Origin: Salegentibacter sp. 24
GTDB lineage: Bacteria; Bacteroidota; Bacteroidia; Flavobacteriales; Flavobacteriaceae
Reading direction: 5' to 3'
DNA: 64,000 nucleotides
NCBI RefSeq assembly: GCF_004362395.1
Contig: NZ_SNWE01000008.1
Coordinates: 1 to 64,000 of the forward strand
This document shows, one piece after another, positions 7,944 to 58,351 of the stretch. Positions within the stretch are counted from its first letter, which is position 1; the number at the start of each line of letters is the position of its first letter. A program made the position numbers and the translations under genes. The notes under the pieces are model-generated. The model did no database searches and was not told the origin of the DNA. It worked only from the letters and a program-made list of their open reading frames with translations.

Positions 7944-7982
7944 AATTTCTTATTTAATGTAAATCCAAAACAACATGCACGG

Positions 7983-7996
7983 ACCTCGCCAGAGGT
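7983..7996 (-). promoter_or_regulatory. Small hairpin in the rplS leader
   Basis: ACCTC-GCCA-GAGGT forms a 5-bp stem with a 4-nt loop inside the predicted 5' untranslated leader of rplS. Ribosomal protein mRNAs often carry such autoregulatory structures. The stem is short and the assignment is tentative. Confidence 0.3.
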
Positions 7997-8012
7997 TATT
8001 TTAGAACGAGTG

Positions 8013-53564: not shown

Positions 53565-54356
53565 TTAAGGTGATGTGCTTAATTTTTTCACGAAGGCTGT
53601 TGCAGCCTTGCCGGGATTACTGGTTTTCATAAAATTCTCACCGATCAAAAATCCTTTATAGCCGTATTGCTGTAAATCTTTAATTGTTTCCACCGAACTT
53701 ATTCCGCTTTCTGAAACCTTTACAAACTCTTCAGGGATCTTTTTCGAAAGCTCTTTACTGATATCGGTACTTACTTCAAATGTCTTTAAGTTTCGGTTGT
53801 TTACCCCCAGCATATCCAGGCTGGGCATAATGGATTTTTTTAATTCATCTTCGTTATGCACTTCTAATAAAACCTCCAGACCAAGGCTTTGTGCAAATTC
53901 TGAAAACTTCTTTATTTGTTTGTTTTCCAAAACCGCCGCGATCAGCAGAATAACATCTGCGCCATGGGCTTTTGCTTCCAGGATTTGATACTCATCAATA
54001 ATAAATTCTTTTCGCAGCAAGGGCAGCTTTACCGCTGCACGGGCGTAAAGTAAATCGTCTAAAGATCCTCCAAAATATTTGCCATCGGTAAGTACGGACA
54101 TTCCTGAGATACCGGCATCTTCATAACCTTTAGCAACGTCTTCAACATTTAGATCCTGGTTGATTACTGATTTTGATGGAGAACGTCTTTTGTGCTCCGC
54201 AATTATTCCGGTTTTACTAGCTTTGAGCTTTTGGCCTAAGGAAATGGTTTGGCGCTTAAAAAGTTCCGCCTTTTCTAATTGCGAAATGGGAACTACAAGT
54301 TTTTTTAAAACCAGTTCTTTGTGTTTATCTGCTATGATTTTATCTAAGATGTTCAT
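53565..54356 (-). CDS. trpC: Indole-3-glycerol-phosphate synthase
   Basis: A 263-aa TIM barrel closing the indole ring. It has the N-terminal ILDKIIADKHKELVLKK extension and the active-site segments IIAEHKRRSPSKSVI (catalytic Glu/Lys), LLRKEFIIDEYQI, LLEVHNEDEL, LGVNNRNLKTFEV and KVSESGISS. Lies 118 nt upstream of trpF. Confidence 0.96.
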   Translation of the reverse strand: MNILDKIIADKHKELVLKKLVVPISQLEKAELFKRQTISLGQKLKASKTGIIAEHKRRSPSKSVINQDLNVEDVAKGYEDAGISGMSVLTDGKYFGGSLDDLLYARAAVKLPLLRKEFIIDEYQILEAKAHGADVILLIAAVLENKQIKKFSEFAQSLGLEVLLEVHNEDELKKSIMPSLDMLGVNNRNLKTFEVSTDISKELSKKIPEEFVKVSESGISSVETIKDLQQYGYKGFLIGENFMKTSNPGKAATAFVKKLSTSP

Positions 54357-54461
54357 TCTTCTGTTATGTATCTCGGTTTTTTGCTTTTGAACCTTGTTGT
54401 GATCTTAATGAAGATCAGTATCCTGCTTAAAAGTTTGCCTATGCGAATTCCCGGAGATGGT

Positions 54462-55454
54462 TTATTTGCTCAGTTCCTGCAATTTTTCCAGGGCTTTTAA
54501 AGCTTTCCCCGAATTTATAGATTCCCGGGCAGTTTCAAAACCTTCCAGAGCACTAATTTGTTTGGTAGTAGCTATGGCCATTCCCGCGTTGGCACAAACT
54601 ACATCGTTTTGTGCTTTGGTGCCTTTTCCTTTTAAAATATTCACAAAAATTTCAGCTGAACTTTCAATAGAACCACCACCTGCAATTTCTTCCTGTTTTA
54701 AAGGTTCCACTCCAAAATCTTCCGGACTCAACATTCCTTCGGAATTATTGGAGATAGTTTTAGTCTTTCCGGTTAGTGAAATTTCATCATAGCCATCCAA
54801 AGCGTGTAAAATAGTAAAATTCTTATCGGTGTTTTGATATAAATAGCCATACATCCTGGCCAACTCCAGGTTAAATACGCCTACTAACTGATTTTTCGGA
54901 AAAGCAGGGTTAACCATTGGGCCCAGCATATTAAAAAAGGTTTTTACCGCAAGAGATTTCCTGATTGGAGCCACGTTTTTCATAGCTGGATGGAATAGGG
55001 GAGCGTGCAAAACGCAAATTCCAGCTTCTGAAATACATTTTTCGAGAAAGCCTTCATCCTTGCTAAATTTAATTCCAAGGCTTTCCATAACATTGGAACT
55101 ACCGCTTACCGACGAGACCCCGTAGTTTCCGTGTTTTGCTACATTTACCCCCGCTCCGGCAGTCACAAAAGAAGAAGTGGTTGAAATATTAAAGGTGTTT
55201 TTACCATCGCCTCCTGTTCCGCAAAGGTCTATGGGATTATAATCACTTAGATCAATGGCCACACATAGTTCCAAAAGGGCATCTCGAAAACCTTCGAGTT
55301 CTTCTATTGTAATGCTACGCATCATATAGACCGTAAGAAATGCCGCGATCTGACTTTCGTTGTACTCCCCATTAGAAATACTGAAAAGCGCTTGTTTAGC
55401 CTCATCCTTTGAGATGGTTTCGTGGTTGATAAGCCTGTTTAACAATTCCTTCAT
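54462..55454 (-). CDS. trpD: Anthranilate phosphoribosyltransferase
   Basis: A 330-aa class IV phosphoribosyltransferase. PRPP-binding loop LCGTGGDGKNTFNIST, then AKHGNYGVSSVSGSSNVMES and a metal-binding GYDEISLTG. It transfers anthranilate onto PRPP. It starts 3 nt after trpG and is not fused to it. Confidence 0.96.
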   Translation of the reverse strand: MKELLNRLINHETISKDEAKQALFSISNGEYNESQIAAFLTVYMMRSITIEELEGFRDALLELCVAIDLSDYNPIDLCGTGGDGKNTFNISTTSSFVTAGAGVNVAKHGNYGVSSVSGSSNVMESLGIKFSKDEGFLEKCISEAGICVLHAPLFHPAMKNVAPIRKSLAVKTFFNMLGPMVNPAFPKNQLVGVFNLELARMYGYLYQNTDKNFTILHALDGYDEISLTGKTKTISNNSEGMLSPEDFGVEPLKQEEIAGGGSIESSAEIFVNILKGKGTKAQNDVVCANAGMAIATTKQISALEGFETARESINSGKALKALEKLQELSK

Positions 55455-55457
55455 AAC

Positions 55458-56024
55458 TTAAATGTTTACCCAATTCTGAATCATTTTTTTTCCGTCCGGG
55501 GTTAACACAGACTCGGGATGAAACTGCACCCCACGTACGTCATATTCCCGGTGCCGAAGCGACATAATTTGTCCCTTTTCATCATATGAAGTGGCTTCTA
55601 AAGAATCGGGGAGTTCTTTTAAAACCACCCAGGAATGATAACGACCTACCTTCATCGTTTTGGGCAAGTCTTTAAAAAGCGGCTCGTCATCGACACAAAG
55701 TTCCATATTAGTGGCAATGCCGTGAAAAACCGATTCCAAATTACCTAACTTTCCACCGAAAACTTCTCCTATTGCCTGTTGGCCAAGGCAAACTCCCAGG
55801 ATACTCTTTGAGGATGCGTATTTTTCAATAATGGGTTTTAAAAGGCCTGCTTCATCAGGAATCCCAGGGCCGGGGGAGAGAAGAATCTTATCGTATTTTT
55901 CTACGTCTTCCAGTTCCAGTTGGTCGTTCCTAATTACTGTAACCTCACAATCCAATTCTTCGAGATAATGTACAAGGTTGTACACAAAGGAATCGTAATT
56001 ATCTATAACTAATATTTTTTTCAT
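55458..56024 (-). CDS. trpG: Anthranilate synthase glutamine amidotransferase subunit
   Basis: A 188-aa class I glutamine amidotransferase giving ammonia to TrpE. Catalytic Cys79 in LGVCLGQQAIGEVFG, and the His/Glu pair in GVQFHPESVLT. It may also serve p-aminobenzoate synthase (PabA role), as in many bacteria with one copy. Starts 37 nt after the trpE stop. Confidence 0.95.
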   Translation of the reverse strand: MKKILVIDNYDSFVYNLVHYLEELDCEVTVIRNDQLELEDVEKYDKILLSPGPGIPDEAGLLKPIIEKYASSKSILGVCLGQQAIGEVFGGKLGNLESVFHGIATNMELCVDDEPLFKDLPKTMKVGRYHSWVVLKELPDSLEATSYDEKGQIMSLRHREYDVRGVQFHPESVLTPDGKKMIQNWVNI

Positions 56025-56061
56025 TCTACCTGGTGTGAATTTAAATTTAATTTTCTAGAGT

Positions 56062-57456
56062 TTAAATATCTTCAGCAATCCCCAGTGCCTTGGTCAAGGC
56101 TCCGAGTTTATTGTAAACTTCCTGTAATTCGTTTTCCTCTACCGATTCAGAAACCACACCGGCACCTGCCTGGTAATGTAACTGGTGATTTTTACTCACA
56201 AAAGAGCGGATAATGATCGCGTGGTTGAAGTTGCCATGGAAATCCATAAACCCAATGGCGCCGCCATAGGCATCACGGTTGACATTTTCGTATTGTTCTA
56301 TAAGTTTCATAGCACTATGTTTGGGCGCTCCACTTAAAGTTCCTGCTGGAAAAGTATCAGCCACTACCTGCATAGTAGGCGTTTTTGGATCTTTAGTACC
56401 GGTAACTTTACTTACCAAATGGATCACGTGCGAGAAGAACTGAATTTCCCGGTATTTCTCCACTTTTACATTGCTACCGTGCCGACTAAGATCGTTTCTA
56501 GCCAAATCTACCAGCATCACATGTTCTGCATTTTCCTTTTCATCAGCAGCAAGTTTTTTGGCTAATTCAGCGTCTTCTTCATCGTTCCCGGTACGTTTGA
56601 AGGTGCCGGCAATTGGATGAATTTCTGCCTGGCCGTCCTGGACTACTAATTGGGCTTCAGGAGAACTTCCGAATATTTTAAAGTTTCCGTAATCGAAATA
56701 AAAAAGGTATGGGGAAGGATTTACGCTGCGTAAAGCTCTGTAAACATTGAATTCATCACCTTTGAATTTTTGTGAAAACCGGCGAGAAAGCACAATTTGA
56801 AAAACATCCCCGCGATAGCAGTGTTTTTTGCCAAGCCTTACATTTTCCCTGAATTCTTCATCCGTTAGATTTGAAACAGGTGCTTCCTGGCGTTCAAAAT
56901 TATAGGTGGCGAAATTCTTAACCTTTAGCAGTTGCTCAATTTCAGCGATTTTGGAATCAGTATCATAGCTGTGATCAAAAATATAAGCTTCGTTGTTGAA
57001 ATGATTTATGGCAATAATATTTTGATAAACTGCGTAGTAAATATCCGGAAGTTTAAGATCACCATTTCGCTTTTTAATCTCCAGGTCTTCGAAATACCTT
57101 ACCCCATCGTAAGCTATATAACCAAAAAGCCCGTTATTAATGAATTTAAAATCAGAGACTTCAGTCTTGAATTGTTTGGCGAAGTCCTGGATCTTAAGTG
57201 GCACATTTACTCCAGGGTTAATTTCAGTACTATTTTTATTTCCGTCAGGGAAAACTTCCGTAATAATTTCATTTTGAATCTTAATGGAAGCGATGGGATT
57301 ACAGCAAATATATGAGAAACTATTATCGTTAGCGTGGTAATCGCTACTTTCAAGCAACAGGCTGTTGGGGTACTTGTCTCGCACCTTAAGGTAAACACTT
57401 ACAGGGGTAATGGTGTCGGCAAGAAGCTTTTTATAGGTGGTGGTTAGTTGGTACAT
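56062..57456 (-). CDS. trpE: Anthranilate synthase component I
   Basis: A 464-aa chorismate-binding enzyme making anthranilate, the committed step. The N-terminal segment SLLLESSD contains the LLES tryptophan-feedback motif. The catalytic half has GDVFQIVLSRRFSQKF, IHPIAGTFKRTG, HVMLVDLARNDLSR, FPAGTLSGAPK and YGGAIGFMDFHGN. It is the first structural gene, preceded by a transcription attenuator, so it is controlled both by feedback and by charged tRNA-Trp. Confidence 0.97.
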   Translation of the reverse strand: MYQLTTTYKKLLADTITPVSVYLKVRDKYPNSLLLESSDYHANDNSFSYICCNPIASIKIQNEIITEVFPDGNKNSTEINPGVNVPLKIQDFAKQFKTEVSDFKFINNGLFGYIAYDGVRYFEDLEIKKRNGDLKLPDIYYAVYQNIIAINHFNNEAYIFDHSYDTDSKIAEIEQLLKVKNFATYNFERQEAPVSNLTDEEFRENVRLGKKHCYRGDVFQIVLSRRFSQKFKGDEFNVYRALRSVNPSPYLFYFDYGNFKIFGSSPEAQLVVQDGQAEIHPIAGTFKRTGNDEEDAELAKKLAADEKENAEHVMLVDLARNDLSRHGSNVKVEKYREIQFFSHVIHLVSKVTGTKDPKTPTMQVVADTFPAGTLSGAPKHSAMKLIEQYENVNRDAYGGAIGFMDFHGNFNHAIIIRSFVSKNHQLHYQAGAGVVSESVEENELQEVYNKLGALTKALGIAEDI

Positions 57457-57471
57457 AAAATATTTTTTTCC

Positions 57472-57495
57472 GTCACTCCCGCAAAAGCGTGAGTC
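57472..57495 (+). repeat. REP-like repeat, left arm
   Basis: GTCACTCCCGCAAAAGCGTG followed by AGTC. It resembles the GTCATTCC-x-GC...GC-GGAATC palindromic repeats scattered through Flavobacteriaceae genomes and is imperfectly inverted relative to 57530-57555. Confidence 0.6.
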
Positions 57496-57529
57496 AAATT
57501 AATTTATTTTTCTGATCTGTTTCTTATTA

Positions 57530-57555
57530 GGAATTCCTGCCTTGGCAGAAATGAC
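57530..57555 (-). repeat. REP-like repeat, right arm
   Basis: Read on the minus strand it is GTCATTTCTGCCAAGGCAGG followed by AATTCC, similar to the left arm at 57472-57495. With the left arm it makes an 84-nt inverted pair (a REP doublet or small MITE) between the trp terminator and trpE. Confidence 0.6.
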
Positions 57556-57566
57556 AAAAATTTCAT

Positions 57567-57598
57567 AAAAAAAAGGCCTGTCGTGAGACAAGCCTTTT
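57567..57598 (-). terminator. Attenuator terminator of the trp operon
   Basis: On the minus strand AAAAGGC-T-TGTC pairs with GACA-G-GCCTTTT (12 bp including one T-G wobble) around a TCAC loop, followed by a run of eight U counted from the end of the stem. It lies 30 nt after the leader-peptide stop and 111 nt before trpE. The loop plus the first bases of the 3' arm (TCACGAC) can pair instead with GTCGTGA at the leader stop codon. Confidence 0.9.
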
Positions 57599-57627
57599 GT
57601 ATGAATTTATACTATAGCGATGTTACT

Positions 57628-57684
57628 TCACGACGTTTGACGTAAATTATTCCACCACCAGGTATTTGATATTCTGTTTTTCAT
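57628..57684 (-). CDS. trpL: trp operon leader peptide
   Basis: An 18-aa ORF, MKNRISNTWWWNNLRQTS, with three consecutive Trp codons (57652-57660). It starts just downstream of a good promoter and ends 30 nt before an intrinsic terminator in front of trpE. Ribosome stalling at the UGG codons when charged tRNA-Trp is scarce would leave the GTCGTGA segment at 57628-57634 free to pair with the terminator loop and 3' arm and so allow read-through. Ribosomes reaching the stop would cover it and allow termination. The ATG lies about five bases after the -7 box, so translation is probably leaderless. Confidence 0.88.
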   Translation of the reverse strand: MKNRISNTWWWNNLRQTS

Positions 57685-57689
57685 TAGTC

Positions 57690-57720
57690 CAAAGATAGGA
57701 AGCATATTTAAATAAACAAG
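57690..57720 (-). promoter_or_regulatory. Promoter of the trp operon
   Basis: On the minus strand CTTG (57717-57720) and TATCTTTG (57690-57697) are separated by exactly 19 nt, the canonical Bacteroidota -33/-7 layout. Transcription would start within about 57684-57688, at or just before the trpL ATG. Confidence 0.8.
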
Positions 57721-57738: not shown

Positions 57739-57769
57739 AGCCGGAAAAGCAATTTTAACTTTTCCGGCT
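57739..57769 (-). terminator. Intrinsic terminator of the marR-yceI operon
   Basis: AGCCGGAAAAG pairs perfectly with CTTTTCCGGCT (11 bp, 9-nt loop). On the minus strand TTCTTTTT follows. It ends the upstream operon 20 nt before the trp promoter begins. Confidence 0.9.
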
Positions 57770-57790: not shown

Positions 57791-58291
57791 TTAAAATTTT
57801 AACTCAATATTCAAATCGAAATTATCGTAAATCGTCTGGTCCCCAAGTCCGCTAAAGAAACTTCCTGAATTATATTTTACATTGTATTTAGAACGGTCAA
57901 TACTGAGTTTTGTAGTTGCAGTATCGTTTCTATGATCTAGATCAAATGTTACCGGATGGGTGTTATCTTTAATTGTAAGGTCGCCCACAACACCATAAGT
58001 ACCGTCGTCTTTCTTTGCAAGGCTTGTAATTACCAGTTTTGAAGTCGGGTGATTATCCACACCAAAGAAATCGTCTGAGTTCAAATGACCTTCCAATCCT
58101 GCTTTATCGTCTCCTTTAAGGTCGGTTACAGTTATTGTTGTCATATCCATTATAAATTCACCCCCGATTATTTCATCGTTTTCAAACAGGAATTTTCCTT
58201 CTTTTAAATCGATAGTTCCAGAGTGTGAACCCAATACTTTTTTCCCTTTCCAGGCGATATTACTTGCTTGTGTGTTTATTTGTTTTTCCAT
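57791..58291 (-). CDS. YceI family protein, cytoplasmic form
   Basis: From the ATG at 58291 the protein has 166 aa and no signal peptide (MEKQINTQASNIAWKGKKVL). The YceI lipocalin-like fold is clear: GSHSGTIDLKEGKFLFENDE, FIMDMTTITVTDLKGDDKAG, LEGHLNSDDFFGVDNHPTSK and a closing YDNFDLNIELKF. YceI proteins bind polyisoprenoid or fatty-acyl chains. It is a close tandem paralogue of the next gene upstream, which has a signal peptide. A nine-codon longer form (from 58318) is unlikely. Substrate unknown. Confidence 0.88.
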   Translation of the reverse strand: MEKQINTQASNIAWKGKKVLGSHSGTIDLKEGKFLFENDEIIGGEFIMDMTTITVTDLKGDDKAGLEGHLNSDDFFGVDNHPTSKLVITSLAKKDDGTYGVVGDLTIKDNTHPVTFDLDHRNDTATTKLSIDRSKYNVKYNSGSFFSGLGDQTIYDNFDLNIELKF

Positions 58292-58351
58292 AGTTATATT
58301 AATTTTTCTTTTCAACATTGATTTTTAATAGCAATTTCTTCCCCAAGTGAT

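Follow-up and report, generated by a model that had tools for sequence, protein, structure and literature searches.

The window analysed here is the whole stretch of 64,000 nucleotides at positions 1 to 64,000 of contig NZ_SNWE01000008.1 from the marine bacterium Salegentibacter sp. 24; all positions refer to it. The minus strand carries open reading frames for trpE (56062-57456; Pfam anthranilate synthase I), trpG (55458-56024; GATase), trpD (54462-55454; glycosyl transferase 3) and trpC (53565-54356; IGPS); the names trpG and trpD are presumptive and follow gene order. Together these genes (53565-57456) are predicted to be controlled by a leader whose terminator lies 110 nt upstream of trpE. 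Among the 80 trpE relatives retained, that of Salegentibacter agarivorans ranks first (96% identity to the window trpE). Elsewhere in the window, Rfam places a 5S rRNA at 1-75, cut by the window edge, and an L19-Flavobacteria ribosomal leader (RF03130) at 7971-7998. A second terminator, at 57739-57769 on the minus strand, lies just after a YceI-domain gene (57791-58318; Pfam).

The promoter of the leader, also on the minus strand, has an upstream element CTTG (57717-57720) placed 19 nt 5' of a -7 element, TATCTTTG (57690-57697). The latter fits the TAnnTTTG consensus given for positions -12 to -5, with G at -5, in PMC9723704 and PMC6847099. A TTTG-like -33 element of Bacteroidota promoters is termed weak in PMC6847099 and PMC7366714. 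At the level of sequence, CTTG-N19-TATCTTTG is confirmed as a promoter of the Bacteroidota type.

The leader peptide, MKNRISNTWWWNNLRQTS*, is encoded by 18 codons at 57628-57684 (minus strand; ATG at 57684, TGA at 57630-57628) and includes a run of three Trp codons (WWW; 57652-57660). It is followed by an intrinsic terminator at 57567-57598 (minus strand), which consists of a 12-bp stem (57598-57587 with 57582-57571), a loop of four, TCAC (57586-57583), and eight U (57574-57567). Two further segments of the minus strand matter for what follows. Segment 2, GUCGUGA (57628-57634), extends over the stop codon and is the putative antiterminator strand, as judged from sequence and conservation; its target, UCACGAC (57580-57586), comprises the loop and the three 3'-arm bases next to it. 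Segment 1, UUUACG (57641-57646), pairs with CGUGAA (57632-57627, in segment 2) in the minimum-energy fold. All the parts that the earlier note had named within 57567-57720, namely promoter, 18-codon WWW reading frame, U-tailed hairpin and 7-bp complement, are thus present on the minus strand as claimed. For its 3'-arm part, that note had put the pairing site at the arm's base; together with the loop, the site actually takes in the loop-proximal top of this arm (57586-57580).

The terminator hairpin (28 nt) has an energy of -16.2 kcal/mol and the 7-bp antiterminator one of -9.1 kcal/mol. The 139-nt leader folds with z = -3.42, and none of 200 shuffles folds equally well. The best match of the spacer to loop plus 3' arm has a scan score of 18; when the spacer is shuffled by mononucleotides, 27 of 5000 versions attain this value. 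For the window sequence alone, chance is thus only a moderately improbable source of the 7-bp match. The match becomes firm because it is conserved in relatives.

The leader belongs to a class that is already known. Rfam RF01692 (Bacteroid-trp) matches 57587-57704 (minus strand) over its whole length (model positions 1-131 of 131) at 66 bits (gathering cut-off, 49), and occurs once above this cut-off in the genome. With this full-model score, consecutive Trp codons and a position before the trp operon of a member of the Bacteroidota, the window leader is a member of RF01692. The class is found in 42 of 395 genomes sampled across the phylum, in 208 of 299 genomes of the window's own family (Flavobacteriaceae, f1) and in two other families, f12 (64 of 123 genomes) and f11 (44 of 151). 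Weak relatives occur at single or paired loci of two more families (L260 in f2; L264 and L265 in f3). In f11 and f12 the leader precedes trpB instead of trpE (e.g. L069); a TrpB piece follows it at 92 of 96 loci. Bacteroid-trp RNA is tabulated by Weinberg et al. 2010 (PMC2864571). A 2019 paper on F. psychrophilum likens its structure to that of the trp leader of E. coli (PMC6414381), and a 2021 transcriptome paper speaks of strong indications that amino-acid operons of this species are preceded by leader-peptide attenuators (PMC9723704). Leader-peptide attenuation, classically described in Proteobacteria according to the earlier note, is therefore already in print for Bacteroidota as well. The model ends inside the 5' arm of the terminator; the loop and 3' arm, and with them the antiterminator pairing, lie beyond it.

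Relatives were collected as 294 loci, 214 with RF01692 and 80 by trpE alone. Trp codons, segment 2 and 5' arm are all part of the model, so these features are biased in the 214 loci. The model does not extend to the loop and 3' arm, and it played no part in finding the 80 trpE loci. In the collection, 100 extra places were hand-picked, non-randomly, from those listed without loci. Some species are present as both named and unnamed loci.

A short reading frame with WW or WWW is in reach at 284 of the 294 loci: all 214 of the biased RF01692 set and, within 400 nt, 70 of the 80 loci found by trpE. Eight of the ten loci that lack such a frame in reach have Trp codons and TCACGAC further upstream (L125-L127, L167, L174, L178, L180 and L187, or 8 of the 80 trpE loci), and the contigs of the other two (L198, L202) start too near trpE to judge the Trp run. 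Among the 283 loci with a terminator, 245 have WWW and 38 have WW. The earlier note had held that homologous regions keeping the terminator while lacking the Trp run would speak against attenuation; no such case occurs among the 80 trpE-found loci, which divide into 70 with the run, eight with it further upstream and two that cannot be judged. In L125 and L126, the reading frame between leader and trpE has 98 aa (GIY-YIG domain in L125; Pfam) and is flanked by short palindromes, GTCATTTCC..GGAAATC and CGCGGGAGTGAC. Similar palindromes are present in the window (57457-57562), without the gene.

For the pairing, 278 leaders were aligned from the Trp codons to the U-tract, and pairs were counted in fixed columns, so that the register was not chosen by pairing. 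Left out of these counts were the ten loci without a WW frame in reach, L116 (no terminator), L205, L249, L258, L264 and L265 (length), and the one f2 locus; collapsing identical rows reduced 277 leaders to 270, from the families f1, f11 and f12. The columns for pairs 8 and 9 lie in the 5' arm and were also left out. All six core antiterminator pairs are standard in 249 of the 270 distinct leaders (167 of 174 in f1, 27 of 40 in f11, 55 of 56 in f12); of the 21 leaders with at least one core pair missing, 13 belong to f11. Pair 6 changes between families: it is G-C in 173 of 174 f1 leaders and A-U in one, A-U in 47 of 56 f12 leaders and G-C in nine, and in f11 (n=40) A-U in 25, G-U in ten and G-C in three, with one A-A and one gap. 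An A opposite C at this pair was found in none of the 40 f11 leaders. L255, within f1, has pairs 5 and 6 changed on both sides.

When f12 segments are combined with f1 terminators, six pairs are kept in 1586 of 9744 combinations. The reverse swap (f1 segments with f12 terminators) leaves 8832 of 9744 paired; it is mild because G-U pairs are allowed. In 194 of the 270 leaders the stop codon has its most frequent position and in the other 76 it is displaced, so the letters of the segment are kept regardless of codon frame. A TrpB tree, covering 92 of the 96 f11 and f12 loci, gives three independent contrasts on supported branches (sign test not significant, median p 0.5). In the trpE tree, whose trpE pieces come from f1 loci only (77 of 137), pair 6 is invariant. 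Within Flavobacteriaceae the two segments hardly vary, and this near-invariance is by itself no argument for pairing. The covariation is consistent in direction and rests on few events. The peptide, its Trp run, the terminator and a conserved pairing with two-sided changes are shown by sequence and comparison.

In the textbook attenuator, the antiterminator ties up the 5' arm, or first strand, of the terminator. This is not what is seen in the window leader, where loop and 3' arm take its place. Over the 270 leaders, the partner bases of segment 2 fall in the loop (884), the 3' arm (724) and, in six cases, the 5' arm. Mean best scan scores of trp leaders (f1, f1n, f11 and f12) are 16.9-18.2 for loop plus 3' arm versus 11.8-12.0 for 5' arm plus loop. 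The single f2 locus has the classical geometry (5' arm plus loop 23 versus loop plus 3' arm 11); the leaders of the two f3 loci (L264, L265) are unparsable and have no score. E. coli trp (trpL), used as a positive control, shares with the window Trp codons, a stop near segment 2, mutually exclusive pairings and a U-tailed terminator; it differs in favouring the 5' arm (15 versus 10), whereas the window favours loop plus 3' arm (18 versus 10).

The his and phe leaders of flavobacteria share with the window a peptide with an amino-acid run and a terminator; the hisG and pheA leaders are among the 5' elements listed in PMC9723704. The same genome has a his leader, MKTFQLHHHHHYNYAQAR, before hisG (L304 900-1330, contig C6) and a phe leader, MNHLISWNAFYFFYFYFWNRNGNAM, before pheA (L305, contig C5), each with a terminator and each favouring the 5' arm. 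The wider sample took the best 30 of 49 his and of 51 phe matching genomes, with L304 added for his, and loci with both peptide and terminator were scored. The 5' arm is the better partner in 25 of 27 scored his leaders (31 loci; mean 18.0 versus 10.5 for loop plus 3' arm) and in 16 of 21 scored phe leaders (30 loci; 16.2 versus 11.9). The unusual geometry that the earlier note had pointed out is backed across three families, and the his and phe leaders differ from it. Actinobacterial trp attenuators also have leader peptides with UGG runs and terminator and antiterminator hairpins; PMC1262725 describes them as being of the classical type, unlike the window leader, and as having GC-rich complementary triples like those of proteobacteria. 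The antiterminator appears to differ from the textbook in the part of the terminator that it takes. No description of a loop-capturing antiterminator was found in the literature searched, which extends to the available parts of the cited papers and stops short of the PMC2864571 supplement, the PMC9723704 appendix and Lopatovskaya et al. 2010 (which may cover Bacteroidota).

The behaviour of the pairings was modelled by folding the growing transcript, pseudoknot-free and at equilibrium at each step, with 14 nt assumed to be hidden in the polymerase. With polymerase on U6-U8, this leaves the loop and no more than two 3'-arm bases exposed. At that stage the window antiterminator has a probability of 0.84-1.00 if the third Trp codon occupies the A site. 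Without a ribosome the value is 0.00-0.03, rising to 0.55 one base past the U-tract; for a ribosome at the stop codon it is 0.00. The terminator is still unformed on U6-U8 in every ribosome state (P at most 0.01, 14 nt hidden). In the longest transcripts modelled it wins in all ribosome states; since the finished RNA favours the terminator throughout, control would have to be kinetic.

In the same model, around emergence of the tip, the best antiterminator probability exceeds 0.5 at 271 of 276 loci with the ribosome on the last Trp codon and at 271 with it on the first. The same threshold is passed at 89 of 276 loci without a ribosome, the window included, and at three of 276 with the ribosome at the stop codon; the near-zero values at the stop codon arise because segment 2 is masked in the model, and are no independent result. 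Without a ribosome, upstream RNA holds segment 2 before the loop appears at 274 of 276 loci. In the folding models, then, the segment 1:2 and antiterminator pairings are mutually exclusive and are switched by ribosome position. The RF01692 match, the Trp run in relatives and this ribosome-dependent switch support the ribosome-mediated trp attenuator proposed in the earlier note.

Taking the G of TAnnTTTG as -5, the predicted +1 (about 57685) precedes the leader AUG (57684) by 1 nt, which gives a 5' UTR of 1 nt; in contrast to E. coli trp, a Shine-Dalgarno-type start is not expected in the window leader. Counted over related rows with predicted start sites and some species twice, 36 of the 66 leaders selected by trpE have a predicted 5' UTR of exactly 1 nt. 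Among the other f1 leaders (n=110), the prediction is exactly 1 nt for 21 and 12-16 nt for 54; all f12 (n=54) and f11 (n=36) leaders are predicted to have more than 9 nt. Among window reading frames of at least 150 aa, two of 54 have a predicted 5' UTR of 0-1 nt, and the share of leaderless mRNAs in F. psychrophilum is given as 5.5% in PMC9723704. The leader peptide is predicted to be leaderless in the window and in about half of its nearest relatives.

Several other readings of the conserved match can be weighed against these data. Segment 2 could pair with the loop as a pseudoknot while the lower nine terminator pairs still form, so that termination is weakened or delayed, not excluded. The antiterminator uses the loop and the top three of the twelve stem pairs and leaves the lower stem free, as such a structure needs; on the other hand, polymerase at the U-tract should still enclose the lower 3' arm if, as assumed, it covers 14 nt. 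We consider the pseudoknot unlikely. It is less probable still that the complementarity is incidental and that segment 2 and the loop are kept by some other constraint, for instance on how the peptide ends or on the binding of a protein. The near-invariance of both segments within Flavobacteriaceae, and the small number of independent paired changes, would fit this; the shifting codon frame in 76 of 270 leaders, and the joint change of both sides between families and in L255, argue against it.

A classical antiterminator on the 5' arm, with the loop match secondary, would bring the trp leaders into line with most his and phe leaders, E. coli trp and the f2 locus. The trp scores for 5' arm plus loop (11.8-12.0), however, are close to those of the non-favoured side of his and phe leaders (10.5-11.9) and far from the 16.9-18.2 of loop plus 3' arm; on these scan scores the classical arrangement was rejected for trp leaders and is very improbable. 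Control of the terminator by a T-box, a TRAP-like protein or another non-translational sensor draws on a single fact, the terminator at the end of the leader, upstream of trpE. RF01692 is the sole gathering-level Rfam match in this stretch, the 15 weaker matches include no T-box, and the Trp run is kept; such a sensor can be given next to no credence.

The window RNA is thus probably a Bacteroid-trp (RF01692) transcription attenuator with a loop-capturing antiterminator, and the mechanism may be pictured as follows. Polymerase would start about 1 nt before the leader AUG, with a ribosome following. When Trp-tRNA is ample, the ribosome would reach the stop codon inside segment 2 and cover this segment; when no ribosome is loaded, upstream RNA would mostly hold it. 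With segment 2 unavailable in either way, the terminator would fold from its tip and transcription would stop without reaching trpE. Under a shortage of Trp-tRNA, the ribosome would stall on WWW, cover or open segment 1 and so free segment 2. While polymerase passes over the U-tract, the loop and first bases of the 3' arm would be just out and the remaining 3' arm still inside; segment 2 would then capture the tip, the hairpin could not nucleate, and polymerase would read through into trpE. We infer the stalling of the ribosome, the timing and the read-through; that nucleation fails while the lower 3' arm is inside polymerase is likewise our inference.

We lean slightly towards a broader reading. 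In several families of Bacteroidota, the antiterminator would capture the terminator tip as it leaves polymerase, in a purely kinetic choice; in one flavobacterial clade, this would be coupled to a leaderless peptide and early ribosome loading. If so, an attenuator can act at the terminator tip and keep the hairpin from nucleating there, with the 5' arm left untied. The his and phe leaders of the same genome, with their textbook geometry, offer a side-by-side comparison with trp, and the Rfam model would gain a loop and 3' arm. Bacteroidota mRNAs are described as being without Shine-Dalgarno sites in PMC6847099; in such a phylum, the trp leader would provide a read-out of the coupling of transcription and translation.
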